Of a DNA stretch of 64,000 nt, positions 1,140-58,794 are shown in pieces. Origin of the DNA: Sinohyriopsis cumingii (lineage: Eukaryota; Mollusca; Bivalvia; Unionida; Unionidae); the NCBI GenBank assembly GCA_028554795.2, contig CM068826.1:107353602-107417601 (forward strand), given 5' to 3'. Under the pieces are notes generated by a model, which was not told the origin of the DNA, did not search any database, and worked only from the letters and a program-made list of their open reading frames with translations. The translations under genes were made by a program, and so were the position numbers. Numbering within the stretch: the stretch's first letter is position 1; each line of letters begins with the position of its first letter.

Positions 1140-3287
1140 CTATGGAAAAAAGTAAAATTGTTTATGAAATGGCAAAGCTTGTTTTCTTAAGGCTGCAAGG
1201 GCTGCTACTGGAAGTTCTTCTAGTCTTAAATTATAAATCTTAACTCCTTATAACTTGAACATAATCGGAATAAATGAATACTGCTTGATATCACAAGGAT
1301 TATCTGCAGTTGTGCATCAAACGTGCAAAATGAAAGCTGCTTACAACCTTTCTAATACAGGACTCCTTGTATTCATACACAATAAAAGATAATGTTTTCA
1401 TACTTAATCAAGAACTTGCTGTTTCACACTATGTCCTTAGGGTGATGTGTCATATCCTTTGAAGACTGCTGGGGTGGGAGAGCCAATTGTGCTAATTTGC
1501 ATAAGTAAAGTTCATAAAGTGGGATAGCCCAATTCATTTTAAGTTGTGGGTAAATCATAGAGATGCCTGATGCATGTAGAAGAACAAAAGTTAAAAATAC
1601 ATCAATTGCCCTGAATGAAAATGCTTAAGCCATCTGTATTAAAGATTATTGGTAAGTTTGTGAACAGTGATGTTTCATTGAAGTTGGATTTTTATATAAA
1701 ATGGAAAGCATGATTATTTCAGTTGTCAGAATAGTGCTCAAGTGTAATCTATTTTTTAAGGTGATTCAGGAAGCAATAAGCTATTTTCAAAGCAAGACCA
1801 ACAAAAATAAATTTTATAACTCCAGACTCATGGAGTTTTTCTTTGTGAAGCACAGAGGCATTTATTACTGCCATATTACCTGTAAAGCCCCCATTAAACT
1901 TGAAAATATTATGTCACCTCCCCCATTCCTCCAATGAAATGCTCAGTCCCAAATGTGATATATATTCATTTTTCTGACTACATTGGAAACAGTTTGACAA
2001 TGCTAACATTATGGCCACTGATAAAAACTCAGTTCTGACCAGAACTGGCTCAGATAATTCAGCAGGGAAGTTTGAACAACAGGGTCTAGCTTGTTTGTTC
2101 TACTGATTACTCCTAAGAACTGCACAGAAATCATGTAAGGATGGTATCTGTGTGGAAAATCTGCCAGGGCATTATATGATGGCAGATCTGGATCTGTGCA
2201 GTTTGCAGTTGGACTCATAAGTGAGTACATATGGTAGATAGATTAGCAATAGTTTGGTAGTATACTGATAAGTCAGTTTCTTTCATCGGAGATAAGTGAT
2301 GGGGATGGACAAATGACAGATGGACAAAAGACACACAGTCATGGATGGACAAATGACAGGGACAACAGACACATGGTCATAAGTCTTATGGCCAGGTGAG
2401 CCTAAACTGATGAATAATAACATTATATACTGAAGACTGCTTGGTTTCTAAATTCAATAATACATTATATACTGAAGACTGCTTGGTTTCTAAATTCAAT
2501 AATACATTATATACTGATGACTGCTTGGTTTCTAAATTCAATAATACATTATATACTGATGACTGCTTGGTTTCTAAATTCAATAATACATTATATGCTG
2601 ATGACTGCTTGGTTTCTAAATTCAGTAATAATGGATGAAAATTTGACCATTAAACAACAACAGATGAAATTACAAATTTCAAATTAATGATGGAATGACT
2701 GAAACGAAACTATGCCTTTTGGTCCCTGGGCATAAAATTAAATTTTTGTCCATGACTTGTCAAATGTAACATATACCAACATATGCTTTAGAAATGTAGA
2801 GACAGAATATAGCTTGAAAGTAAATGCATTCTTAAAATTATTCACATCAACCAAAAATCATTCAGAAAGCATGTAAAGATGGTATCTGTATGGAAAATAT
2901 AGGATATACAAGAGTAGGTAAGTATTTCTAATCATTGTACAACAGTTGAAAAATCTGTTGTCTGGCACCTGTCCCAGATACTTACAAGATTCATACAAAA
3001 TAATGATTTCAGGCAAGTAGAAAATTGTCCAATATTGAGCCTTGATGATTTGAATGTTACTTACTTGTACCTCCCCAATATCAGCTCTATTCTCTATACT
3101 GAAGGTTTTCAGACCTTTATAATCAGTGAATGTGCTTTTAGGTTCCACGGGAAAGGCAGCTGTTATATCTACCAGCAAATACTCAACAGGTAGTGGACGT
3201 GCCAGTTGGGTTACTTCATTGCCATACTCATCTGTGTACTGTATTAGAAACATTGAACATAAATATATACATACATGTATACATATG

Positions 3288-9915: not shown

Positions 9916-12900
9916 TTACAATATATGATAAAAAATTTTTTTATCAATATGCTATGATTGGTTTAGATGTCTAATGTACATAAAAACGAAAAAATATAGG
10001 TCAGTAAAGGCAGTTATCTTCATGTGATGAGTAAAAAAAATCCTTAATTTTTTTTGACACATTTAAATAAAATAAGCATTTTTATGTTTCTCCATAAAAG
10101 CTCAATAAGAATGCAAATTTCTGTTGAGTTATTTCTTCCACTAAAATATCACGTGTCCATGATATGGGAGGGAGATAAAGTATGATGTAATTAATAAGCA
10201 GATATAAAATCATTATCTGTGGCAATCTTTGAATCTGGCAACATATGTTTCACTGAAGATATCTGCTAAGACTAAAGGTAGATTATGTTTAATGATAAAC
10301 CTAAAAATCACTGCTTCTGCATTTGAAATAGCTCAATGACTGGTGATTGCACTGTCTTACTTGATAAGGGTTTTTAATGAGGTAGTTTGCTTTTTCAATG
10401 CAATAAAGTCATTATGGCTTTTTAACTTTGGACTCTGTATGCCTTTTGCAATGGTTTCTACCACCATGGAGACATGAGATTTCCATGTTATATACTGTGC
10501 AACATGATACTTTGATACAATGAACTATTTTAAGAGTGGACACATGTAAGAATATTTTTCTTGAAAAGTTTTTTTTTCTTTCTCTCACTAGCTTGCTCTG
10601 TAAACTGTTATTGCATTTTCAATTTTTATTCCTTGCATGATTTAACAACACAGCAAAACAAAAAACATTTTTCCAAAATTAAAATACAATAACTAAAATG
10701 AAAAACTGGAAATATAACATGAAGTTTGGCAGGTACAAAATAGAGAGCCATACATGTGCACTACAATGGGAAATCAGGGGACAGCACTAAATATTATTGA
10801 CTATTATTTCGGTTTCATATGTGACATCAAAAATGGCTCTCAAAGTTATGATAGTCTGTAAATTTTGATTACTGTTTGTAGTACCATAATATGAGTTGCT
10901 TCTCAGTAATAAGTATGATGAAACCATAACGGTAAACAGAACTGAGGATGATACTGAATAGAAGCCATATGGTAAATGAAAGGTATGGATTGAGAGCCAG
11001 ATGAATGCACAGTACAGTTGGCAGCCAGTATGGCATCAAAACTGAGGTGTGGCTGGATGATATGGACAGTATGGTCTGCAACCATATGGACAGCTGGACA
11101 GTATGGTCTGCAACCATATGGACAGCTGGACAGTATGGTCTGCAACCAAGATGGCATTAAAACTGAGTTGTGGCTTGACAGCAAATCTCATTCATGTCAT
11201 TTATAAACCCCATGTGACTGGACTTACACACCCAAATGCCATGCCTGGACATGCAGGGAGACTTAGGCCATCTAGGCTGCTTACAATATGGTGTAAACTC
11301 CCCCAAAGTATCGAAATTCTTGCCTAAAGCAGGAAGATGGAAGGACACAGAAATGGGGGTTCAAGTCATTAATAAACCCTATGCACCCCGACTTACTGGC
11401 CCAGGCCCATGCTCAGACATAGCAGGAGAGGACTTGCACCACCTGTGCTGCCCAGAATTTGGTGGAAACTCTCAAAAAGTATCTAAATTCTGCAGATATG
11501 ACATAATCCCCCACCAGGATGACCAAAGTCTCAGTATATGGTGAATGTTCATAACATCAGTACTCTCTGTCCTTTGATTCTGAATGTCCAAAAATGTTAG
11601 TGCTCTTGTTCCTTTCATTTCCATGTCACTCCAAGTTTCTTCCAGTTTTCCTTAGAACTGTTGACTATGTATTCTCTAACTGGCTCACATGCTGCACATA
11701 GTCAATTATGTACACTTTGTATATGCGAAATATGAGTCAGGGATTTCTCGCTGGCAAACATTCTTGCATTTAACATACATAGTCATTGTAGTTGATTCTT
11801 AAACAATAAAGTAAGGAAAGCAAAAAAAGGTAATGCATAGTAACTGTGTTATAAATGCAAGAGACTGCAGCTATATCAGGGTGATAAATAGTGTGTGCAA
11901 ATAACGAACTTCAAGACACATTCTATTACAATGTAGTCAGTAGAGACATGGGGGAAACTAAATCTGCAATTATGGTCAAAATTTTAAAAAATAATGTATA
12001 CCACCTGTAGAATAATTATTAATACATCTGAAAAGAACAAAACCTTCAATGGACGGGATGAAAAGTAGCACAAATTTCCAATCAATTTTGGGAGGCGAAG
12101 TGAATGATGTCAGTTCACAAGCAAAAGCTTAAAACAAGCACCACCTGTAGGCAGCAAGGGGAGGTAGTGGATTGGAGTTATTGTCCTTTGTCTTTATAAT
12201 ATAGACCAGAAAGATGAATTTTCATCTTTGAGAGGGCTGGATTTGGGAGGTAGAAGGGCTTATATTTCCAATGTTAATGTGATCAGGGAATGTATCTGAA
12301 GGAAAAAATGGTTCAGGCTGTGAATCTGAAAATAACTTGAAAACAAACCTTACAGTGGCTGGCTGCAGGAGGTGGCTGGCGATGTGAGGTGACCATAAAG
12401 TGGGTTGGAATTTTATGAGCTTTCATATTTACCTGTTACTATAACTGTAACGAACTTTGATCCAAAGTGACCATCTGAAGAGAGCTTGCAGGGGTTTGTG
12501 TACTTATTCTGGAAGTCTGCGGCCATTATACACTCCTCGGCACTGAGAAAATGGGAGTCCTGAAAAATATTGGATATGTACTGGATATCAACACATACCT
12601 GACAAAGAAAGCAATGTATAGTTACTTTTGTAGTACTTTGGATTGTATCAATTATGTGATATAAAATTCCTACAAAATATGAATGAATATCAGTGAGACC
12701 TGAAGCAAGTATCATAAAGTTCACAGAAAGATTAATGTTAAGTCCTGACGATTAAATTAATGGATAGGACAGCATATGTTAAAATAAATTCAAAAGAGTG
12801 TAACTACTTCTGTCCATCAAAAATGAAACTGTGTTTCTTATTTGATTGGGTGTATTACTGACTGAATGTCAAGGTTAAAATGACATGGCATAAAAGAAAA

Positions 12901-15900
12901 GAATATTGCACAATTATGTAAATCAAAGTCAGGTTATCCATATTACCATCTATAACTATTTATAAGTCAGATCCAACGGCAAACAACATAGAACCTAATC
13001 TGCCATCACATAGTGTGCCAGCAGATCATGTTATTTGTTTTACTGATTATTCTTAACAAAATGCACAGATCCAGATCTGCTGGAACATTATGTGATGTCA
13101 GATCTTGGTTTGTGCAGTTTGTAGTTGGAGCTGCCTTACACACAAGTACAGATGGTTAATGTAAATTGCCTTGCACAAAACATAAAATACAACTGAACCT
13201 CCAAAACTCAAAAAGTAAATGTGCAGTTTTTGAGCTTGTAAGCATGAAAAATCTTTATGCTGCAACTCAGAGTCATTTGAGTAATGCCCAAAGCATGAGT
13301 GATTAAGATTTCACTGCAAATTTACAGCAAGCAAAAATACAAGCAAATGCACAATTACAAAATGAGATACATAGTTCAGTCTCAAGATCATTCAAGCTCC
13401 TCACAATGGGCTGGATTAATTGTGATCTTAAATTATTGAGATTCCACTTAAACATTCAATGTGACAAGCAAAAACACAAGTACCAAACAACACATAAAGT
13501 CTAGTCTCATGAATATCATTCAAACTCCTCCCAATGGGTTGAAATACTACTTTCTTTTTAATGCACTGTCAACAAATTATTCTTGACTGCTGTAACAAAC
13601 TAAAGTGAATGTTAATATAGATAAATGTCTAATCCAATACTAGATCATATTTCAACCTCCTTAATTATAAGGTACATCATGCTTAAAACCCCCGGATAAA
13701 GATTAACATTCTTTTGACATCGTTTCTATTATAGGTTGGGAAACAAATAAGGTAAAGCTTTGTACTTACAATATTGCCTCTAAAGGTAAAGCTTTGTACT
13801 TACAATATTGCCTCTAAAGGTAAAGCTTTGTACTTACAATATTGCCTCTAAAGGTAAAGCTTTGTACTTACAATATTGTCTCTAAAGGTAAAGCTTTGTA
13901 CTTACAATATTGCCTCTAAAGTTCTTCACTGTTCCAAGTTTTAGGTCCTCTGCAACAAGGTCTGTGAATATCCAACCTACTGGACGAATTCCTAACTGCT
14001 CAGCAACTCTATTTACAACTTCTTCATTGGGATCTGGCAGCAACTCAATTTTGTTCTTGCTATTTTTCTGCAGAAAAGTAAAAAACAAACAGAACAGATT
14101 AACTGTAAAGTTACTTAGTTTGAACAGGCATATATATTACATATTCTTTTCATTTTGTTATTTTTTTAAATGAAAAACTCAAACCTTTTGTTGTACTAAA
14201 ATTTGAGGATATTTCTCTGCCTATCCTTTCATAATATTATGTTTAATAAACTATAACAAAGCTAAATATATGGTATAGACAACCAAAAGGTACAAACATT
14301 ATCCAAAAAGGTGCATGCAAATATTTCTGAATAAATGGTCAGAGCTGAGGGCAAAATTTAGTTGTCTAAATGACAGTCATTTTCATTGTCATGGTGGAGA
14401 CAAAACGTGAAGCCCTGTGCTCCTCCGATAATAATGCAGGAATAGAATTTACAAACTAAAAATATGTTCAAGAAACAAACTAGCCTAAATGTAAACAGAA
14501 GGGATTGAAGCTCTAATGCTCCGAAAGAATCTCCAGGATTTCAAGATAAGACTAATCTTTTCATTTTAACCACCAAGAGTTTCAGATTAATAAGATTTTC
14601 AAAATAGATGCTGTGGATGTCAGATTGGTACCAATTTCATTTAGGACCAACAAGACATTATAAGAAGTCCTCTGGTGAAAAACCCACGTTGATATGACTT
14701 TCCATTTCAGAGAAGTAACAATAATAAGATTTACCAGATGGTTTCCATGGCTGTTTCCATGGTGGCCATTCTGGATATCAGACTGGCACCATTTCCATTT
14801 AGGACCAACCATCTATTAACAAGAAGCCGTAACATGATTTTTCAAGATGGCCATTGTGGCAGTCATACCATACTGGAAGTCAGATTGGCACCATATTCAT
14901 TTACTACCAACTAGAGATTATAAGAAATCTTGCATTGAAAACCCAATTCTGATATAACCATTCATTCAGGAGTGGTGATAAAAACATTTTCATAAATTTC
15001 CACTGCGGTGGTCATACTGGACATCAGACCAGCACCAATTTTATTTTTGACCAACATCATAAGAATTCTTCTGGTAAAAATTCCCAAGTGAATGCAACTT
15101 GCTGTTCATGAGTAGTGCTAAAAAGAAGATTCTTCACACTCACTGCATGAATATGCCTGATCACTGTCTGCTTCCATTTTGGGATATATTATTCCCTGTG
15201 GTAATGATGATGCAATGTCATGATCCCTAAATAATCCATTAAAAATACCTGTAGGTAGGGAGTGAAAACAGTAAAAGCTGACTGCACTGGGTGATTTTCT
15301 TGCACCTGGGCAGACAGTTGGTTAGCTATGAGAATGGTCACCCAGTTCTTGGATGTGCATAAGGTGGTCTGGTTAGCTTTAATATCAGTTGTGCAGGAAA
15401 TATGACTGGGCAGATAAACTTGTCACTATTGTCCCCATCACAATATGCATGTGCAGTCACTGGCCTGATTATCTGCATGGATTTTTCACCAAGGTTCCCA
15501 TATTTATACACAGAAGATACCGTATGCATAGCTAAATCACTAAGATCCCCATAACTGAGTCCAGGTTGGAATGACTGGGCTGGTTAGATGGCCAGTACAG
15601 TTCTAGACTATGCTATGGTACTGTTATGTTGGATCCACCAGATCTAAAAATACCACAAATACAAGGACTTTAAGGCCCAAAGCCAATGCTTATACATGCA
15701 CAGGAACTTACATCCACTCTGAAGTTTAAAAATGGGGGAATGATTCCCCACTGTGTCCAAATTATATGCAGGAGTGAAATATGGAAAATAAGGCTTATCC
15801 AACTGTGACTTCAACATGTTTGCCCCCAAATCAGCTGATGTCATAGTGGCATACATCAACAATAGCATATTGTACCACACAGTCTAAACTGACCAAGTCC

Positions 15901-18900
15901 AAGAAAGTTCTATATTTCACAATTTCATATTCACCAAATTAAAATATAATGTATACCAACTGTTTATGAATGAACATTAATTCGAATAAATCTAAAATTT
16001 GGAATGAATGGACTGATCGTAACACAAAATGACTAAATGACTGATGTAACAGGAGGCTCATTCCATACTATGCTGTGTATGGAAGCAAAACTTAAAAACT
16101 GATAACACCTAGTGGTGGCAAGGGGAGGAAGTGGGCTTGAGTTACTGCCCTTTCTCTATATGAATTGTGTCTGAATTTTAGGACTAGAATTGGGAGGTAG
16201 CAGACTTATATCCTAATGTTAATGTAATTGGAGAATGTATTCAAAGGAGAAATCATGTTCAACACTAACCTGTGGTGGTTCATATATTGCAGCAACTGTT
16301 GCCTTGATTCCAAGAGGAACATCTTTGTGTGGTTCATAGCGTCCATATAGCATACCTAATCTCTGGTTGCCAGTACTCCGCCAATAATTCAAGAAGCGGT
16401 CACACAGACTAGGGTTCTCAAACAGAATATTATCAACATGACGATACCTCTGAAAAAGTCAATTATTCCAATAACTCAAAATATGTCACTGTTTGAGTGA
16501 AAGCATTATCATTTTTATCTGCATAAATAACACAAATATTTCATTGAATGCTGCACATTTATTTGATTGATCTATGATGATGTTGATGAGGATGAATCTG
16601 ATAAAAATTCATGGGAAATTTACCAAAACTGGACAATGTTGGAAACAAACAGTTTGACTGATTTATGAAAATGGCCAGAAGTTTAATGTGACCAGTCTAT
16701 GTGGCCAGTCTGCAGAAGAAGGCAGGATCAAAACTGGCCAGTTTGGAGAATTTTCACTAGATATTATTACTTAGCACATTAATAAAGTTTTTATTTTCAC
16801 AAATGAAGAATGCAGAATGATGTGTATTCTGTGCAAACTTCTAAGCAAATATGAACTAAATATTTATTTGTTATGTATGTATGTATGTATGCATGAATGT
16901 ATGTATGTATGCAGCATGCATGCATGTATGTATATATGTCTGTATGTATGCATGTATGTTTGTATGTATGTCTGGATAGATAGATGCATGCATACATGTA
17001 TTTTGGTTTAATGGGAAGTTATTACAATACCGACTATATGGTGCTGATCAAAAGATTAAAAGTAAACTTTTAAAATGTAAATATAAAGCACTGCAAACAC
17101 GTTTAAGGTAAACAAAAAATTTCAAATAAAAATAAACATGAAAAATACAAAGTAAAAAATAAAAAGTAAAGATTTTAAATTTTATAAAATGTATCTAAAA
17201 TAAATGAGACAGGTAAAAAAACCCATAAAATACTTAAAATTTTAATGTTCAAAATAGAAACAAAATTATTATTCTCTATAAACAAATATACCATTAATCA
17301 AAATCTTCTTGATGAATGTTAAAAAGGAAATGATCCTCTTACTATAAATTAATATGACATACTGTAATAAGTATGCACATAACTAAGAACTAAATCATAC
17401 CCTGATCTGTATTGTTTACAGATTTACAATCTGCAATCTGTTAAGGCATTGGTGAACCCAAAAACAACAATATCATAATAGTCTGTTAAAAAAAAAAAAA
17501 AATCATCATAAAGGTTCATTAAAAGCTTCTTAAAGAATAACTGAATATTGTTATTTGCATGTGTATTGTATAATCATATATCACAGAAACACTGCAAAGT
17601 CATTCCTAAGCCATATAGCATAGCTTCCAAAAAAAAAATAAAAAAAATAAATACATTTCAAAACAAAACAGGACAAAGAAGAGAAAGGAATTTTTTAAGT
17701 AAATTGTGTTTTTCAGAGAATACTTACCCAATCACATTACCCTAGGAATATCAGCCTGCTACCTCACAAATCCAACCCTACTAAAAAGACAAAAATCATC
17801 TTTTCCTGTCTATCTCAAATAGACAAGGGGCAATAACTCTAGCCCATTACCTCTCTTGCCAGTGCCAGATGTTGCTAGTTTTTAACTGAGCAATATACAA
17901 ATGAGGATACTTGCATGGTGGGATGGTTGGGAGGCTTTTTAAGTAATGTGACTGAGTAAATATTCTCAGAGAAACACAATTTACTTAAAGATTTGCTTTC
18001 TCCTTCAAATACGTTCCCAAACACATTAACATTAGGAGGATACATAAAAGGAGGAATCACCATGCTAATGAACACCCCATTTTTCTAATTACATAAGCAA
18101 CACAGCCTGTGTTCACTTGATCTGTGACAGCTACATATGGTTAAGAAGATAATTACTGAAATCTTCTAACCTACAAAATTTCACTGGTGAATCAAGTGAA
18201 GCTGATAGGCTGTGTTGACTGTTTAAATTTAGTCTGGTGGTCATCTGGGCTGCTGCCACCACACCTACCATATTCAAGGTTTGTCTCTGCAAAGATAAAT
18301 CCTTGGGACTGAAACTCAAGAAGGTTGACTCTGCATGCCAGCCAACAGCTTCTACTATAACTGGGATTGAAATGTTACATTCAGGTGCAAGGCTCGTGGA
18401 GATCACTCTAAACTCCAGAGTGGTAATGTTCGTGAGGTGACTCGGATCTTGTGAGACCTCTGGGTATGCCACAAATCAAGAGCTTCTTAACTGTCACAGG
18501 AAGAAAGAGGCATATACATGTTCCATGACTTGTCTCAGAGCATTTCAAGTAGCGCTTGAGTGCGTCAACATGATCTTACATGGATGCTGTTCTTGATCTA
18601 TCTAAGGAGAGTGAGCAAATGAGAATTCTTTCATTACTGAATGATGGTAACCTATTTTTTCTACAAAGCCTGGTTACATCAAGAGGATCACCAAACTATG
18701 CAATCTGAACTGAATCTAGTTCTGGTCGACAGAAAGGGCATGTAATTCAGTCTTGAAATCCAGTCTTGTTGGAAACGGACTCAAATTGTTTGATGATCCT
18801 GATTACACAAACATGAGAAAGCCATACCAGATTTAGGCTAATGATAAACTCCATACCCAAATGGACAAAATGCTGAAATGGATGGAGGTCAGACTTTTCC

Positions 18901-21900
18901 CAGCCTAGATGAGAGAAGATCATTTCTACCTTGAAGCAGATTACAACTTACCATGAACTGATTACTTTGTCACAGTAAGCAAAACAAGAATTTCTGTGAT
19001 GCTGGATGGATAGGGATGTGAAAATATTCATCAGTTAGGTCAGGACTGATTACATACTCATCCCTATGGATGGAGAGACAGACTGATTTGTCTCCATCTT
19101 AAAAATTTCGGTGGTGAAATGAATTGGTTGAGGTGACTCAGGTTGATGATCTGCCTCAACTTGCTGTTCACCTTCTGAATAAGAAACAACCTAGAACAAA
19201 GCCCCAGAGATTGTGGTCTTTGCACAATCATTACTGCCTGTTGTTTGAAGAGTGATGTATCTCCTGTTGTAGAAAGGCATCCTTCCAATGATCTGACAGT
19301 ATGTCTGTGATGAGGGGGGACAAGACTGTCCGAAATAAACTGGATCACCCAACTATTCTGAGGAAATAGGGAGATCCAGTGAGCCTAAAATTTAAAGGAT
19401 GCAGCTGCTCACAGGTATACTGTCTGTGGCAGTGGGAAAGGTAGGTAAATTTTTAAAGTTAGGAGGCTTGAAGGCAGAGAAACTTGGTTTCTTGCCTCCA
19501 CTGTATGCATGCCTCCTAGCTTGGTAAGACTGTTGTATCCTGTCATTGGTCTGAAATCTATATTGCAGATCTGATCTCCATACATTTAGCTGAGTGGGGA
19601 AGGAGCCTAAAGGATGGCATTTCTTCAACCTGGTTGAAATCTACCATGGTCTTGAGTAGCAGTAGGAGGTGAAGGTCAATCTGAAATGGCCACACCCATA
19701 AATGTCCTTGACTGTGACCTTGAGGCTAAATAAGTCCATTCCAATTTTGGATTTGAGTATGGCTGAATTGTAAGAGCTTTGTCATACTCACTGTGTGTTG
19801 AGTACTGACCTGATTTCACTGGCAGCTCTGGAGAAGCCATAACAGCTGGCTTCAATGACTTAATTCCATCCTCTTTGAAAATGTCACTAACTCTACCATG
19901 TAAATAAGTAGTGAACATATTCTAGCACTGCTGGAAGAGCTGGCTGGTTTGCCTGGCGTATTGTCAGCCTGGATGCAGGCAGTATATAGAAGACGTGCAG
20001 CTATCACTGGTACCGGCTGCTCTAAGGGCTTGGCTAGATGAAAAGATTTCTCATTGAAATCTCGGTTATAGTACAAATATGTCACAGACGGTATGGCTAA
20101 ACATAGATCTGTCACCAAGATGCCTGTAAATCCTAGTTGGCCAGACCACATGATCAAAAAGGTCCCCATGCTGGAATGGTTGGTATCACTGGTACCAGCT
20201 GCTCCAAAGGCCTGACTGGACGGATATATTTCTTATTGAAATCTCCATCACATAAAAGCTATGTCACAGACAGTATGACTAAATGGATGTATCTGACACT
20301 AAGATCCCCATAAATTCTAGTTGGCTGGACTGTTTTCTCAAACAGTCAACTATCCCAGACTGCCAGTGACAGTGAGACTGTATTATGAAATGACTCAAGA
20401 AAAGAAAACAAAGCATAAATTAGCAATTCAGCATGTTACTAACTCACTATTGCTGTATCCCAGACTTCCTCTGTCCTCGTATTACACACACTTCATTGCT
20501 GCATGTCATAGACACTATACTTCAGTACATACAAAAGAAAAATCATGGCTGACTTCCTTTGCTCTGAACTTTGCATTGTATGTATTTAGTTCACATTTCT
20601 ACTGAAACAACACAGAAGAGAAAACAAAGCATAAATTAGTATTCAGAAAGTTACTAACTTGCTAATATCAACTCCATTACTAACAGAGTAATTGGAAATA
20701 GCTAGTATTGTGTTTGTGCCTTCTAGACTATGCTCTGACCTTATGCATTTCATACATTTAGTTGACATTTCTACTGAAATGACACAAGAATGGAAAACAA
20801 AGCATAAATCAGCAATTAAGCATGTACTAAGCTGCTAAACCATCTCCATTACTAATGAAGTGAAAACAGTGTTGCAATAACTTGTAAATGCCAATATGAG
20901 GTCAACAAAAGTGTAAAGTATCATGGTCTTAAATAGATGAATTCCATAAAGGTGACAATATCACTCCAATTTGGCAGAAACTGTAAAAATAATGTACAAA
21001 ACCTGTACAAGAATGATTGACCTACATAATAAATCCAAAATTCGGGTTGGATGGTCCAATATGAACACTATGATGGCTTGAATTACTGGAGGTAAACTAT
21101 ATGATGTTTTCAGTAAAGCAGCAATGCTGAAATACTAGTGACATATGGCGGATGCAAGGGGAGGTAATGGGCAAAAGTTATTGCCCTTTGTCTCTACAAG
21201 ACAGACAGAAAAAGACGATTTTCATCTTCTAGTACAGTTGGATTCATGAGGTAGGAAGATAATATTCCTAATGTAACGTGACTAGGGAAGGTATCTGAAG
21301 GACACATGAGACACATCAATCTCTATATGGCATATGTTAACCATCTACCTACCTGTCTATTAAGTGTTACAGCATTAGGTTGACATTTGGTACAGATACC
21401 TCCTGGCCATGGTAAATGTTCTTTGCACCCTGGCTTTATCCTACAGCTGAGGTTTTCTAATGTGGCAAATTTTCCTCTGTTAATAAAATTTGACTAAATA
21501 ATATTTTTTCTGCAAAAGATAATCTAAAGATGAATTGTAAGAATTTATCTCAATATATTTTTAATTTTGAACTTTTAATTGTTGTTTTCTTTCATCTAGC
21601 ACAGACAGTTTAACAAGACAAAGGTTCCTGGCCATTACAACCCAGAAGTACTAACCTAAAGATATTCAAAGCAATATCTTTAGACCACAAGTGTTTCCTG
21701 CACTTGGGCTGAAACATCTTCCTGTAATAATTAAGTTGTGAAGAATAAAAAAAAGAATTATAGAGCCTACTTTCATTATTATAAGAAAGGACTCATGCTA
21801 AACTTTATACAGTGAAAAACTAGTTATTAATTTTACTTTAAACAACATATAATCTATCTCTGACACATACAATAGTCATCATGATTAGTTTTATGCAAAA

Positions 21901-24900
21901 CTTATTTTATTTAGGAGAAAAGCATATTGTAAACCTACCTGGCAGAAAGTAATGTTGGTTTTTTATTACTCATACATTAAAGTAATTTACTTCTGTAAAT
22001 TTCTGGTCATAAAAAATGTATTTTATTTCTAACGTATCATAACTTTCACAGTCATCAGGTCAGAACTTACTTATCTACCCCTCCAGTTAATTTTCGGATG
22101 TACGAGTGGAAGGACAGGTACTTGATGGGAGGATCACAAGTTGCCAAATACTGCTCATCATAGGGCTACAAAATTAAGCATGAATATAGAACATGGACAA
22201 AGATATATAATACAAGTCTATGTAATTATTCAGCATAAATAAAACATGGATAAAGATATACAATACTGGCATATACAATTATTCAGAATAACCAAAACAT
22301 AAAGATTTTGTAATAATGATTCCTTTTCCAAACAAGTGACACCAATATTAAAGAAGGGTGAATAATCTGAGGCTTGAAACATAAGTTTAACATATTTAGA
22401 TTTCATTTTTGATCTTGTGCTATATCATATTTATATTCATTTGGAAGAATTATCTTCCTGAATTTTTACAGTTTTCAAATTTACCTTTAGCTGGCACTAC
22501 ATAGCCTCCACTGTGCTGAGGTGGCATAAAACAGTACAACATGCATACACACAATCAAATACAAATGGTCAGTTCTCTGCAAAATTACCAACATGGTTTA
22601 AACATATGAATGACAACAGTGTTATTATGTACAATGTAAACAGTACCAATAGTTTAACGTTTTTGCTATTGGTCAATATGTATAAGTACTGACAAAAATA
22701 CATAAAAATATCATTTGATTCTTTATGTAGTAAACATGTACTCTCAAACACTACTTTCAAACTTAACTGCCACCATGGCAGCAACATTGGAATAAAGGCA
22801 TTCACAATGACCACCATTAGACAGAATATTTCTGGCTCATCTATTCATAATTGTATTTTCATTTTCACTGTTGTAGCGCATAATTGTTTCTTATGCCAAT
22901 ATTTCATCAAGATTTTTTGACTAGATGACATTCCATTCTTTTTAAAAAAACTAGTTTTGTGCCCTGCTGAATAAGAATCACCCCATGCATGCATGTGTTT
23001 CCACAGCAGTAGACTGTATTACTGTGTGGTTCATTCATGCAATGAAAGATGAGTAAATTGTGTTATTCATATAACATAACAGACCAAATTGCTTGTTTTG
23101 AAGTTTACAATATAAATGTATCTGGCCAAATAAATGTAAAAAAATATTAGGTCATCATTCATGTGGCATAGACTGCCCTTGCAAGCTTAGGCATTCTGTT
23201 CCACATGACCCTGTCTCCAATATTTTTCAATACTCTGTTAATAAACAATATTTATATCATTTAATTGTGGTTCCAAGATGATAGTGTCAGACCTGTTTAA
23301 AGTGTGTGTGTGTGATTTTGATTTTTAATGTAGATTTAACAATTTTTCAGTCATATCGTTATGTCTGCAGTGTGGACATTTATAGTGATGTTTACCACTG
23401 GGGCAACATGCTGCAGACATGTAGCATCATGTCCCACCCAGTCACATTATCCTGACACCAGGCCAACCAGTCCTAACACTAACCTCTTAATGCTAAGTGC
23501 CTAGTGAGGTAGCTGTTAATACCATTCTTATAAGTATGTGGTGTCACTTAGCTTGGGTTCAAATTAGCAACCTGCTGCATCTGAGGCAGACACTCTAACC
23601 ACTATGCCACTGGAGTGGTCTCAGACCTGTCTAACTAGACAGATGTCTACAAGTAACCTGCTAATATTCAGTCCATAGTTTGATCTACCTGTCTATAGTT
23701 TGATATCCTTGTCCTGACAGCAGGTTCAACATCAATAAATTGCATCATAAAGCATCTAAATGGCTACTAGTGTCCTTAAGTCTCTGTTCAACTGACACCC
23801 TCCACCCTTTTATATCAACCGTAAGTTGAATGAACTGGACAATGCTTAGTTTATAGCTTCATTTCTATTAAGACAATGCCATCCATTGGTGGAAGTGATA
23901 AAAAAACACTACTTTAATTTTTATTCTCAACAGTTCATCATGACAAAATAATATTATGAGCTTCATGCGTGATGATCTTATTTATAATTACACAGATATC
24001 ATAACATACTGAATTAATGAAATTGACAGCTTCCATAACAGCTTTAAAAAAAATACTAAAAAATACAGCTCTGGCATAAAAGTTCTAGGTCTGTAAATTC
24101 TATACCCTGAACAATAGGCCATATTTTCTTTTAAATTTCTGTACAAACTGGAGCGAAAAATCATAGCAATAAACTTTGCTGCAGTGCATTAATACTTGAA
24201 ATTTGTATGTTTTGCAAGATTTTATGAAATTTCATCCAACAACCAAGGACAGGAAGAAAAGTAAATTGTATGACTGAAAATAACTCCAGGAGATGAAAGT
24301 AAAAACTATCTTGATGCTCAAGTTTCTTGAAACATACTGTTTCAAGTGCAAGGTTTCTTTGGAATAAAAATAAGATCTAATTCATGTTCCAAATTTACTT
24401 GACTACAATTCTGAAATGTGGTGCAACAAATTCAATCATCTAAGCAATAGACAGCTGCAATATTTTTACCTCTAAAGGAGAGCAGTGAAGGCATTTTCCT
24501 AAGGGTCCATGACGACAACTGAAACAAAATTAGTTAATGTCACAAATATTCTTCACATTACAGACTGGAAAGGAATCTGCATAATGGTAACACGGTAGCA
24601 AATACTTTTCACTGCATAATACAAACTTGTCATTAGCAAGATAGTAACTTTGCATGCATAACAAGCCCTTTTCATTGCACAGTAAGTACTTTTCATGGCA
24701 TAATATGAACTTTTCATGGCATAATATGAACTTTTCATTGCATAATACAAACTTTTCATTTACGATATCAACTTTTCATTATATGAAATGACTTTTAATG
24801 TATTTTATGAACTTTTCATTGCATAATATGAACCTATCATTGCATGACAAGAACTTTTCATTACATGAAAAAAACTTTTCATTGCATAATATGAACTTTC

Positions 24901-51411: not shown

Positions 51412-51695
51412 GTAAGTAATCTGCTTGGTATTGTATTTAATATGAATTGTCAAGACTTTGTAAGTAATCACTTGGTATTATGTTTAATTTGAATCATCAA
51501 GACTTTGTAAGTAATCACTTGGTATTATGTTTAATTTGAATCATCAACACTTTGTAAGTAATCACTTGGTATTATGTTCAATTTGAATCATCAAGACTGT
51601 GTATTATATTTAATTTGAATCATCAAGACTTTGTAAGTAATCACATACTGTGTGTAATCACTTGGTGTTATATTTAATTTGAATCATCAAGACCT
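51412..51695. repeat. About 47-bp tandem repeat
   Basis: Unit GTAAGTAATCACTTGGTATT plus ATGTTTAATTTGAATCATCA plus AGACTTT; about six units with internal deletions. Confidence 0.9.
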
Positions 51696-55338: not shown

Positions 55339-56379
55339 GTAAGTTATTACTTGCAGTGAAGCATATCTATAATGTTGGAACACTTTTGTATGTTTTTTTC
55401 TCTTGAAATTGCCATTTCTGAAGTGAAGCAGTCAGAATCCTAGCTTATTGCAATTCCAATAAAATGTCCTGCAAAGGACAGTATGGCTGCTTTATTTGTT
55501 TGACCTTGACATCAGTAAATATCTAGCTATTTACAACAGTTACACACAGTAAATGTTTAAGAATTATTTGCACATATGACTTTTTCCAAGAAATACCCAA
55601 AGTTTCCAGCAATACTTGTCATTTTATTTTGATTATTATTTTTGTCAAGGTGAGAATGAAACTGCTGTCACACACAAGTGATGCAGTAAATACTTGAAAA
55701 TATGTAGGCTTTTCCTGACAAATTTCATCTGTTGTAACCGTATGTAAATATGTCTCATACTATTATTAAGTAAATGCGACGCTTCAGAATGTTCTTGCAT
55801 TTCCAATGAAATTCTTTATTTGTGGTAAAAAGTAAAGCATTGTGGATACCAAATACATGCTTAAAAATTGCAGCTTCTGGAAAAAATAGTTATTTCTATA
55901 CCATGATACAAGTAGAGTCATTGCTTTTTTAAAGTAATTTTAGTATTGGATGAATTTACATTGCTTCAGGTAGATATAAATAAAGGGGCACCAACTCAGT
56001 TTGCCACATTCTCCAGCACATCTAACTACTGTTTTTTTTAAATATATTTTGTTGGCTAAATCCATATTATTTCATTTATGAAAACAAAGTTAATGTTATG
56101 TTCATCTTTTAAAATAATTAATCCTAAGATATGTCATTAAACAGCTTGTCATTTTGTCATGAACAATTGTTTCATCATGATGAATAATGTCTTTATTGGA
56201 AAAAGTACTGAATGCATGCAGTATTACTAAATGTTGCTAAATACTTTGGAATGTGCAATTAATATTATTTTAATTTGTCTTGTAGAATCATCACAAGATG
56301 CTACTTCATACATGCTTATAGTTATATGCAACTTGTAACATGGCCATCTGCATACATTTCTTCAAAGTCATTGTAACTA

Positions 56380-58233
56380 TACTGCTGTAATACCAGATGC
56401 AATGCCTGCCATTGTGATTATACTCTATAATACCAGATGCAATGCTTGCCATTGTGATTATACTCTATAATACCAGATGCAATGCTTGCCATTGTGATTA
56501 TACTCTATAATACCAGATGCAATGCCTGCCATAGTGATTATACTCTATAATACCAGATGCAATGCTTGCCATTGTGATTATACTCTATAATACCAGATGC
56601 AATGCCTGCCATTGTGATTATACTCTATAATACCAAATACAGTGCCTGCCATTGTGATTATACTCTATAATACCAGATGCAATGTCTGCCATTGTGATTA
56701 TACTCTATAATACCAGATGCAATGCCTGCCATTGTGATTATACTCTATAATACCAAATACAGTGCCTGCCATTGTGATTATACTCTACAATACCAGATGC
56801 AATGCCTGCCATTGTGATTATACTCTGTAATACCAGATGCATTGCCTGCCGTTGTGATTATATTCTGTAATACCAGATGCAATGTCTGCCATTGTGATTA
56901 TACTCTACAATACCAGATGCAATGCCTGCCATAGTGATTATACTCTATAATACCAGATGCAATGCCTGCCATTGTGATTATACTCTATAATACCAGATAC
57001 AATGCCTGCCATAGTGATTATACTCTATAATACCAGATACAATGCCTGCCATAGTGATTATACTCTATAATACCAGATACAATGCCTGCCATTGTGATTA
57101 TACTCTATAATACCAGATACAATGCCTGCCATTGTGATTATACTCTATAATACCAGATGCAATGCCTGCCATAGTGATTATACTCTATAATACCAGATGC
57201 AATGCTTGCCATTGTGATTATACTCTATAATACCAGATGCAATGCCTGCCATTGTGATTATACTCTATAATACCAGATGCAATGTCTGCCATTGTGATTA
57301 TACTCTATAATACCAGATGCAATGCCTGCCATTGTGATTATACTCTATAATACCAAATACAGTGCCTGCCATTGTGATTATACTCTACAATACCAGATGC
57401 AATGCCTGCCATTGTGATTATACTCTGTAATACCAGATGCATTGCCTGCCGTTGTGATTATATTCTGTAATACCAGATGCAATGTCTGCCATTGTGATTA
57501 TACTCTACAATACCAGATGCAATGCATGCCATTGTAATTATACTCTGTAATACCAGATACAATGCCTGCCATTGTGATTATACTCTACAATACCAGATAC
57601 AATGCCTGCCATAGTGATTATACTCTGTAATACCAGATGCAATGCCTGCCATTGTGATTATACTCTATAATACCAGATACAATGCCTGCCATAGTGATTA
57701 TACTCTATAATACCAGATGCAATGCCTGCCATTGTGATTATACTCTATAATACCAGATGCAATGCCTGCCATTGTGATTATACTCTATAATACCAGATGC
57801 AATGCCTGCCATTATGATTATACTCTATAATACCAGATGCAATGCCTGCCGTTGTGATTATACTCTATAATACCAGATACAATGCCTGCCATTATGATTA
57901 TACTCTATAATACCAGATACAATGCCTGCCATAGTGATTATACTCTATAATACCAGATACAATGCCTGCCATAGTGATTATACTCTATAATACCAGATAC
58001 AATGCCTGCCATAGTGATTATACTCTATAATACCAGATGCAATGCCTGTCATTATGATTATACTCTATAATACCAGATGCAATGCCTGCCGTTGTGATTA
58101 TACTCTATAATACCAGATGCATTGCCTGCCATTGTGATTATATTCTATAATAGCAGTTACAATGCCTGCCATTGTGATTATACTCTATAATACCAGATGC
58201 AGTACCTGTCGTTGTGATTATACTCTTTAATAC
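56380..58233. repeat. 40-bp minisatellite, about 46 copies, with higher-order structure
   Basis: Consensus TACTCTATAATACCAGATGC plus AATGCCTGCCATTGTGATTA. Units differ at a few recurring positions (GATGC/GATAC, CCATTG/CCATAG, CTATAA/CTACAA/CTGTAA). The variant order in 56651-56925 is repeated almost exactly in 57251-57525, a 600-bp (15-unit) shift. Located to the right of exon 5 of the plus-strand gene. Confidence 0.97.
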
Positions 58234-58794
58234 CATTATCCAAACTGATCAAAGTGTGTTTTCAGTGGAATAATATGGAAAAGAATCAGTTGGAAATCAG
58301 AGTAAACCTGAATTATGGAAATTTAACACAGACTGGGTGTGTTTTTGGTGTAACAAATTTGCAAATGACTTCAGTGGAAAATAATTTGAGAAAGTCTGTG
58401 GATTTTCTGTACAAATGTCAAGTCTCTTCCAGATGTTTTGTGTCTATGTAATGTCATGCTCAAAATGGCTGACTCAGGATCATAGCTTGTGTAAAAATTT
58501 TAACTAATCAAAACATAGAACAGTGTCTCCTTACATGCTAAAGCATGATTGAAGCACTGCTGAAATTCTAGAAGCATTTAGCAACTTCATAGCAAAAAGT
58601 GAGTTTGGGCAGCACTAACCCATTTATCAGAAGTAAATTACAGGTAGTTAAAATCAAAAATAATGTGACTGTCTACAGTACTTCAATCATAATTAATTTT
58701 TCAGTTGATGATAAGAGTCATGAATTGTGGTGAAAAAGTATGTCTAATCAAAATTTTTGTATTAAAGAAATTAGCATATTGTATTTATCTTGAG

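Follow-up and report, generated by a model that had tools for sequence, protein, structure and literature searches.

Mirage minisatellites, tandem arrays that run across an exon-intron boundary, have been described in lancelets in Adh3, the globin genes BflGb6 and BflGb9, troponin C and PGBD5 (PMC3087553, PMC3902484). In the passages of these reports considered here, the repeat units measure 10 to 160 bp (10 to 72 bp in Adh3, 60 and 108 bp in PGBD5, and 150 to 160 bp in the globin genes) and occur at both exon ends, and regular splicing was found to be undisturbed, a conclusion based partly on reverse transcription-PCR (PMC3087553, PMC3902484). Length differences between haplotypes are also reported there, and somatic instability at Adh3 is cited (PMC3087553). 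Here, we analyzed a stretch of 64,000 nucleotides of contig CM068826.1 (positions 107353602-107417601; the window), in which a 34-bp minisatellite covers the end of an exon of NPLOC4 together with its splice donor, resulting in five copies of this donor. The array is best filed as a donor-side mirage, an element of a known kind that occurs at least three times in this genome and, given a genome size of 2.9 Gb, very probably lies outside lancelets.

NPLOC4 lies on the minus strand of the window, where nine of its exons were recognized through the Pfam family NPL4 or through structures of human NPL4. Taken singly, two of these exons are weakly supported, namely a 16-residue stretch near position 24517 (i-value of 0.78) and, near 1139, the final exon within the window (E value of 0.88). 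The array is located at the end of the exon here named H, which is followed by exon I:

13906..14067, minus strand: NPLOC4 exon H, 162 nt, codon phase 0 at both ends, acceptor TTTTCTGCAG; its ends were read from the sequence
12560..13905, minus strand: intron between exons H and I with donor 1 in use, 1346 bp
12433..12559, minus strand: NPLOC4 exon I, acceptor ATATTTTTCAG, matching Pfam NPL4 (1.6e-17) and human NPL4 (2.2e-15)
13749..13921, minus strand: NPLOC4 minisatellite, found by Tandem Repeats Finder with a period of 34, 5.1 copies, 98% matches and no indels

The 60-amino-acid frame of exon H matches Pfam NPL4 (5.6e-10) and human NPL4 structures (5e-13), and the NPL4 profile is continuous across the two exons, ending at position 83 in exon H and resuming at position 84 in exon I. 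Judging from the alignments, the loop at this junction is apparently one residue longer than in human NPL4. No solved structure was matched by the third reading frame upstream of exon H. Introns of 2202 and 1346 bp lie on either side of exon H, and skipping of the exon keeps the frame at a loss of 54 residues.

The array measures 173 bp, of which 157 bases form the start of the downstream intron and the rest the end of exon H. Its unit, TTTAGAGGCAATATT|GTAAGTACAAAGCTTTACC, was read directly from the sequence in five copies, and the sole variant among them is one G>A substitution in the exon-derived part of copy 2. Direct comparison of the copies and Tandem Repeats Finder thus agree with the original prediction, an earlier annotation of this DNA, which had described five tandem 34-bp copies with one substitution. 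The 15 coding bases per unit given there hold as well, or become 16 when the shared C at 13921 is counted. Of the features that characterize a mirage, the locus shows the three structural ones: the tandem array is of minisatellite length, it crosses the exon-intron boundary of a real gene (exon H belongs to NPL4, and copy 1 holds its last 16 bases), and a splice signal lies in the units, as in many but not all lancelet mirages (GTAAGT in five of five units). Five copies of a 34-mer cannot have arisen by independent chance. The single difference among them suggests a recent expansion, in line with what had been read from their near-identity before, although within-array turnover can also keep copies alike.

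The repeated donors and the signals that are formed between them are as follows:

13904..13905, minus strand: donor 1 (GT), the sole donor with an open frame into exon I
13870..13871, minus strand: donor 2 (GT), a copy of donor 1
13836..13837, minus strand: donor 3 (GT), a copy of donor 1
13802..13803, minus strand: donor 4 (GT), a copy of donor 1 that keeps the phase but lies beyond two stop codons
13768..13769, minus strand: donor 5 (GT), a copy of donor 1
13882..13884, minus strand: in-frame TAG, formed at the first unit junction and hit by every read-through past donor 1
13882, 13848, 13814 and 13780, minus strand: ends of the acceptor-like junctions

The G bases of the donors are at 13905, 13871, 13837, 13803 and 13769. 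The figures of the original prediction mark the T of each donor, with the G one base higher. The junction at donor 1 joins the ...TVKNFRGNI of exon H in frame to exon I. Use of any of donors 2 to 5 reads VSTKLYL and then TAG at 13884-13882; donor 4 adds 102 bases and brings the frame back, but only after the two stop codons. Translation of the products of donors 2 to 5 confirmed that only the first donor keeps the frame and that the others, by way of this TAG, truncate the protein inside the NPL4 (MPN) domain. Both the stop and an acceptor-like motif, CTTTACCTTTAG, are made by the joining of two units: the TAG doubles as the AG of this motif, which recurs at every unit junction, 24, 58, 92 and 126 nt from donor 1. 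If these junctions were used after donor 1, the resulting introns would measure 24 to 126 nt, and each of the four translated products stops soon after the junction.

The repeated donor had been described as a full consensus donor. This is accurate for its intron side, GTAAGT, whereas its exon side reads ATT and departs from the consensus MAG. The modelled duplex of the exon H donor with U1 amounts to -6.8 kcal/mol, which is among the weaker values of the nine NPLOC4 donors compared (-5.6 to -13.4 kcal/mol for the presumed donors of the other eight exons). Two other exons of the gene end in closely spaced candidate donors. The exon near 21481 ends CAG|GTAG|GTAG, with two candidates at 21352 and 21348 on the minus strand, 4 nt apart, which we take to be a classic overlapping tandem donor. 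The exon near 3241 ends GAG|GTACAA|GTAA|GTAA, with candidates at 3070, 3064 and 3060 on the minus strand, of which one pair is 6 nt apart and hence in frame.

Minisatellites, counted as arrays with a period of 15 to 100 and at least three copies, make up 4.6% of the window versus 4.5% of 200 kb sampled at 20 places on contigs C1 to C4. With about 4.5% of the sampled genome in such arrays, one at an exon end is therefore not very surprising. Random placement of the seven arrays of the window covered one or more of the nine NPLOC4 donors in 33% of trials; the share was 13% without a single 1.9-kb array and 5% with the two youngest-looking arrays only, all three figures ignoring selection. The position of the NPLOC4 array can thus be explained without a special cause, even if it is not a common one. 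Other arrays in the window include one of 42 bp in 5.2 copies (97%) between two NPLOC4 exons at 2413-2630 and one of 40 bp in 46.7 copies (93%) at 56369-58235.

A pattern search of the genome for three AGGTAAGT motifs 18 to 48 bp apart yielded 855 matches (406 + 449), with overlapping matches counted separately, versus 5780 for the reversed pattern. For CAGGTAAGT, the reversed and forward patterns gave 808 and 223 matches, respectively. Since the backwards patterns are found more often than the forward ones, donor motifs are not enriched in arrays. Among the 100 matches listed out of these 855, we counted 27 separate arrays. The 501 bp upstream was taken for all 27, and 25 open frames from 19 of them were scanned with Pfam, a scan that covers a part of the open frames and is limited to exons of at least 20 codons. 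Seven of the remaining eight arrays lack an open frame of 20 codons at the first located copy, and the eighth (L052) repeats the flank of another (L051). Recognizable exon ends were found at 2 of the 19 arrays tested (of the 27 among the matches listed), and these are two more donor mirages in the same genome, both new here:

C2:39291777-39292154 (L048, 278-655): second donor mirage, 42 bp in 9.0 copies, 96% matches, at the end of an NTE-like (PNPLA6/7) exon, with nine GTAAGT
C2:26812660-26812858 (L056, 361-559): third donor mirage, 38 bp in 5.2 copies, 82% matches, at the end of a MUS81 exon

The NTE-like exon matches Pfam NTE_Ploop up to the donor (1.3e-5) over 30 of 223 profile positions and with 25.5 bits, just below the curated cut-off of 27. 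It has the acceptor TTGCTTTCAG, and the units repeat its last 12 bases. As the frame matched nothing among solved structures or in NCBIfam, the call rests on the Pfam match, the acceptor and the open frame. The MUS81 exon matches the structure 2ziu (5.9e-9) and Pfam ERCC4 at only 0.033; its unit consists of the last 32 exon bases plus GTAAGT, and the five listed donors all read AAG|GTAAGT. In both arrays, as in NPLOC4, read-through beyond donor 1 runs into a stop ahead of donor 2. The copies of the MUS81 array have diverged, which indicates that such an array can persist. Both arrays were found through their donor motif and hence say nothing on whether selection preserves the donors. Among the results listed by searches of the open literature, which did not name these genes, NPLOC4, NTE/PNPLA6 and MUS81 did not figure as carriers of a donor mirage.

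The motif AGGTAAGT occurs 12 times in the 200-kb sample, corresponding to about 170,000 occurrences genome-wide if the sample is typical. Assuming a guessed number of 10,000 to 20,000 true donors, 6 to 12% of arrays would be expected to lie on donors by chance, and 2 of 27 arrays on exon ends shows neither preference nor avoidance. Weak Pfam matches at other loci (CaKB, 0.25; PNRC, 0.19; DUF5992, 0.12; PPIP5K2_N, 0.062) were judged to be due to chance. A search for the mollusc haemocyanin domain PF14830 yielded no match, an outcome that carries little information. Within the window, a minisatellite at 51412-51693 on the plus strand has a 47-bp unit and about six copies, five of them with GTAAGT, but no recognizable adjacent exon; it was rejected as a second exon-end case, as the six frames of 46 to 61 kb gave no Pfam match at an E value of 0.01, and illustrates the repetition of a donor motif without a known exon. 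At C6:43889984-43890261 on the plus strand, 37-nt units lead from GTAAGT through a pyrimidine tract to TTTCAG, and their junctions read CAG|GTAAGT, like a recursive splice site. A common unit was found in the distant arrays at C2:64409343 and C2:84534299 and in those at C1:163602499 and C1:171079428; L051 and L052 have the upstream flank in common besides the unit. Because distant pairs have a common unit, some donor-bearing minisatellites seem to be dispersed, perhaps inside transposable elements.

Taken together, we consider it about 75% probable that the NPLOC4 array is a young minisatellite of the mirage type whose first donor is used and which is near-neutral. It may have started with the tandem duplication of a segment reaching from the last 16 bases of the exon to about base 19 of the intron. 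CTT is common to both ends of this segment and flanks the array on both sides (exon ...AACTTTAG, intron ...ACCTTATT), and to judge from the sequence it is a possible slippage point; the copy number would then have risen to about five. Most likely, exon H is recognized by the spliceosome over its entire extent, its acceptor being paired with donor 1 as the closest one, and the four further copies would end up in the intron and be spliced out. A minor share of transcripts may use a copy, run into the in-frame stop and be degraded. Use of donor 1 is predicted from the long flanking introns (2202 and 1346 bp). In the passages considered of Carranza et al. (2022), five minigenes with two identical donors and flanking introns of 365 nt were spliced only at the upstream donor, human exons that have near-equal donors and lie between long introns favored the upstream one, and this preference was kept in smaller minigenes when identical donors were weakened (PMC9225289).

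Several observations weigh against donor 1 use and near-neutrality. According to the same passages, weakened identical donors led to exon skipping in larger minigenes, and human alternative donors that are unmatched for strength use the downstream site in about 60% of events (PMC9225289). The human MSH6 variant c.3936_4001+8dup, a 74-bp tandem duplication across a donor, is described as yielding no normal transcript from the haplotype; the downstream copy was favored 7:1 over exon skipping in the blood cells of one carrier, and skipping was the sole aberrant product in some samples (PMC9818763). Furthermore, the exon H donor is weak on its exon side (-6.8 kcal/mol for U1 pairing), so that some leakage to the copies is plausible, and the reports of splicing-neutral mirages come from another lineage, lancelets. 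Weighing these points, we regard the array as likely inert.

The original prediction had proposed a decoy-donor or decay switch, in which the extra donors compete for U1, a downstream choice leads via the stop to nonsense-mediated decay, and copy number sets the NPLOC4 level. Every downstream donor does lead to a premature stop upstream of later exons, and in the reported MSH6 case the duplicated donor took over splicing completely (PMC9818763). An in-frame stop also lies between donor 1 and donor 2 in all three arrays; by our own estimate, however, a stop is expected about half the time within 34 to 42 nt of AT-rich intron, so that three of three is uninformative. The long flanking introns favor donor 1, mirages of this kind are reported to leave splicing intact in the lancelet passages (PMC3087553, PMC3902484), and donor-bearing arrays are numerous in this genome. 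Folding of the array RNA (221 nt) was no better than that of shuffled sequences (z = -0.66), and no Rfam family reached its gathering score anywhere in the window. Beyond the arrangement itself, nothing found supports a regulatory reading, and such a switch appears unlikely.

Also rather improbable is a harmful or costly allele that substantially disturbs splicing, through downstream donors or skipping of exon H, and that is tolerated as heterozygous or young and is being lost. The MSH6 duplication provides a precedent in the passages cited (PMC9818763), the single substitution among the copies suggests youth, and exon H, with its 162 nt, can be skipped in frame. Against this stand the similar arrays at two other exon ends, of which the one in MUS81 has diverged to 82% matches, and the small survey, which gave no sign of a depletion of arrays on donors and is based in part on a guessed number of true donors. 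A further idea is that donor mirages recur as a class in this genome and that the NPLOC4 array serves as a length-variable set of U1 landing sites, each copy raising exon recognition or shifting transcripts to decay, so that repeat number would tune NPLOC4 output between individuals or cells; we consider this speculative and quite doubtful. An assembly error in copy number, with one or two copies at the real locus, is very improbable. One lancelet mirage was seemingly mis-assembled in a draft genome, according to the passages considered (PMC3087553), but the NPLOC4 array of 173 bp is far below the length of modern long reads, copy 2 contains an internal variant, and a search with the 301-bp array locus gave a single match in the 2.9-Gb assembly. 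Finally, a nascent intron or recursive splicing, with CTTTACCTTTAG|AGG at the junctions as acceptor and 10-nt micro-exons between the repeated donors, is hardly credible, since the pyrimidine-rich stretch ending in AG at each junction, with a donor 10 nt later, and the intron creation by tandem duplication reported for a potato gene and described for fission yeast genes (PMC4974935) are set against a short tract, a seeming lack of an evident branch site at the usual distance and early stops in all four translated products.

Arrays of identical donors such as the NPLOC4 mirage are natural experiments on the choice of the spliceosome between equivalent sites. The published cases disagree on this choice: splicing of the minigenes took place at the first donor alone, whereas that of the MSH6 duplication never used it. 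At least three such arrays, with between five and nine donors apiece, are present in this genome. Consistent use of donor 1 would confirm exon definition in vivo at a stringency that is difficult to construct by hand; otherwise, repeat number would be a heritable dial on expression. Moreover, mirages, described in lancelets, are extended to what is very probably another lineage, and we suggest that minisatellite-rich genomes carry many of them.

In comparison with the described cases, the MSH6 duplication is similar to the NPLOC4 array in that an exon end was duplicated in tandem together with its donor, which results in identical donors. As far as it is described, it differs in comprising one extra copy of 74 bp with only 8 intronic bases repeated, in being pathogenic and in leaving the first donor unused. 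Intron 9 of MSH6 is presumably short, and the case would then fit a proximity rule or intron definition. Tandem repeats that alter genes in human segmental duplications are likewise similar, with units of about 30 bp on average in four copies and some cases at exon-intron boundaries, an average that pools exonic and boundary cases; in the passages considered, they differ in affecting genes of recent duplication, in which new introns and alternative transcripts are frequent (PMC2812944). The potato and fission yeast cases have in common with NPLOC4 that tandem duplication multiplied splice signals, but according to the part of the report considered a new intron was gained there, whereas in NPLOC4 an existing intron merely became longer (PMC4974935). 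The minisatellites of an earthworm metallothionein gene are intronic, with no boundary case in the passages considered (PMC12783039). With the lancelet mirages, the NPLOC4 array has in common a unit length within the range reported in the passages cited, and BflGb9, in which the 3' boundary of exon 2 is duplicated, is its donor-side counterpart. Unlike them, it lies in a different gene and in a genome of 2.9 Gb, far above any lancelet genome size we know of, and presents five near-perfect donors at 34-bp spacing.
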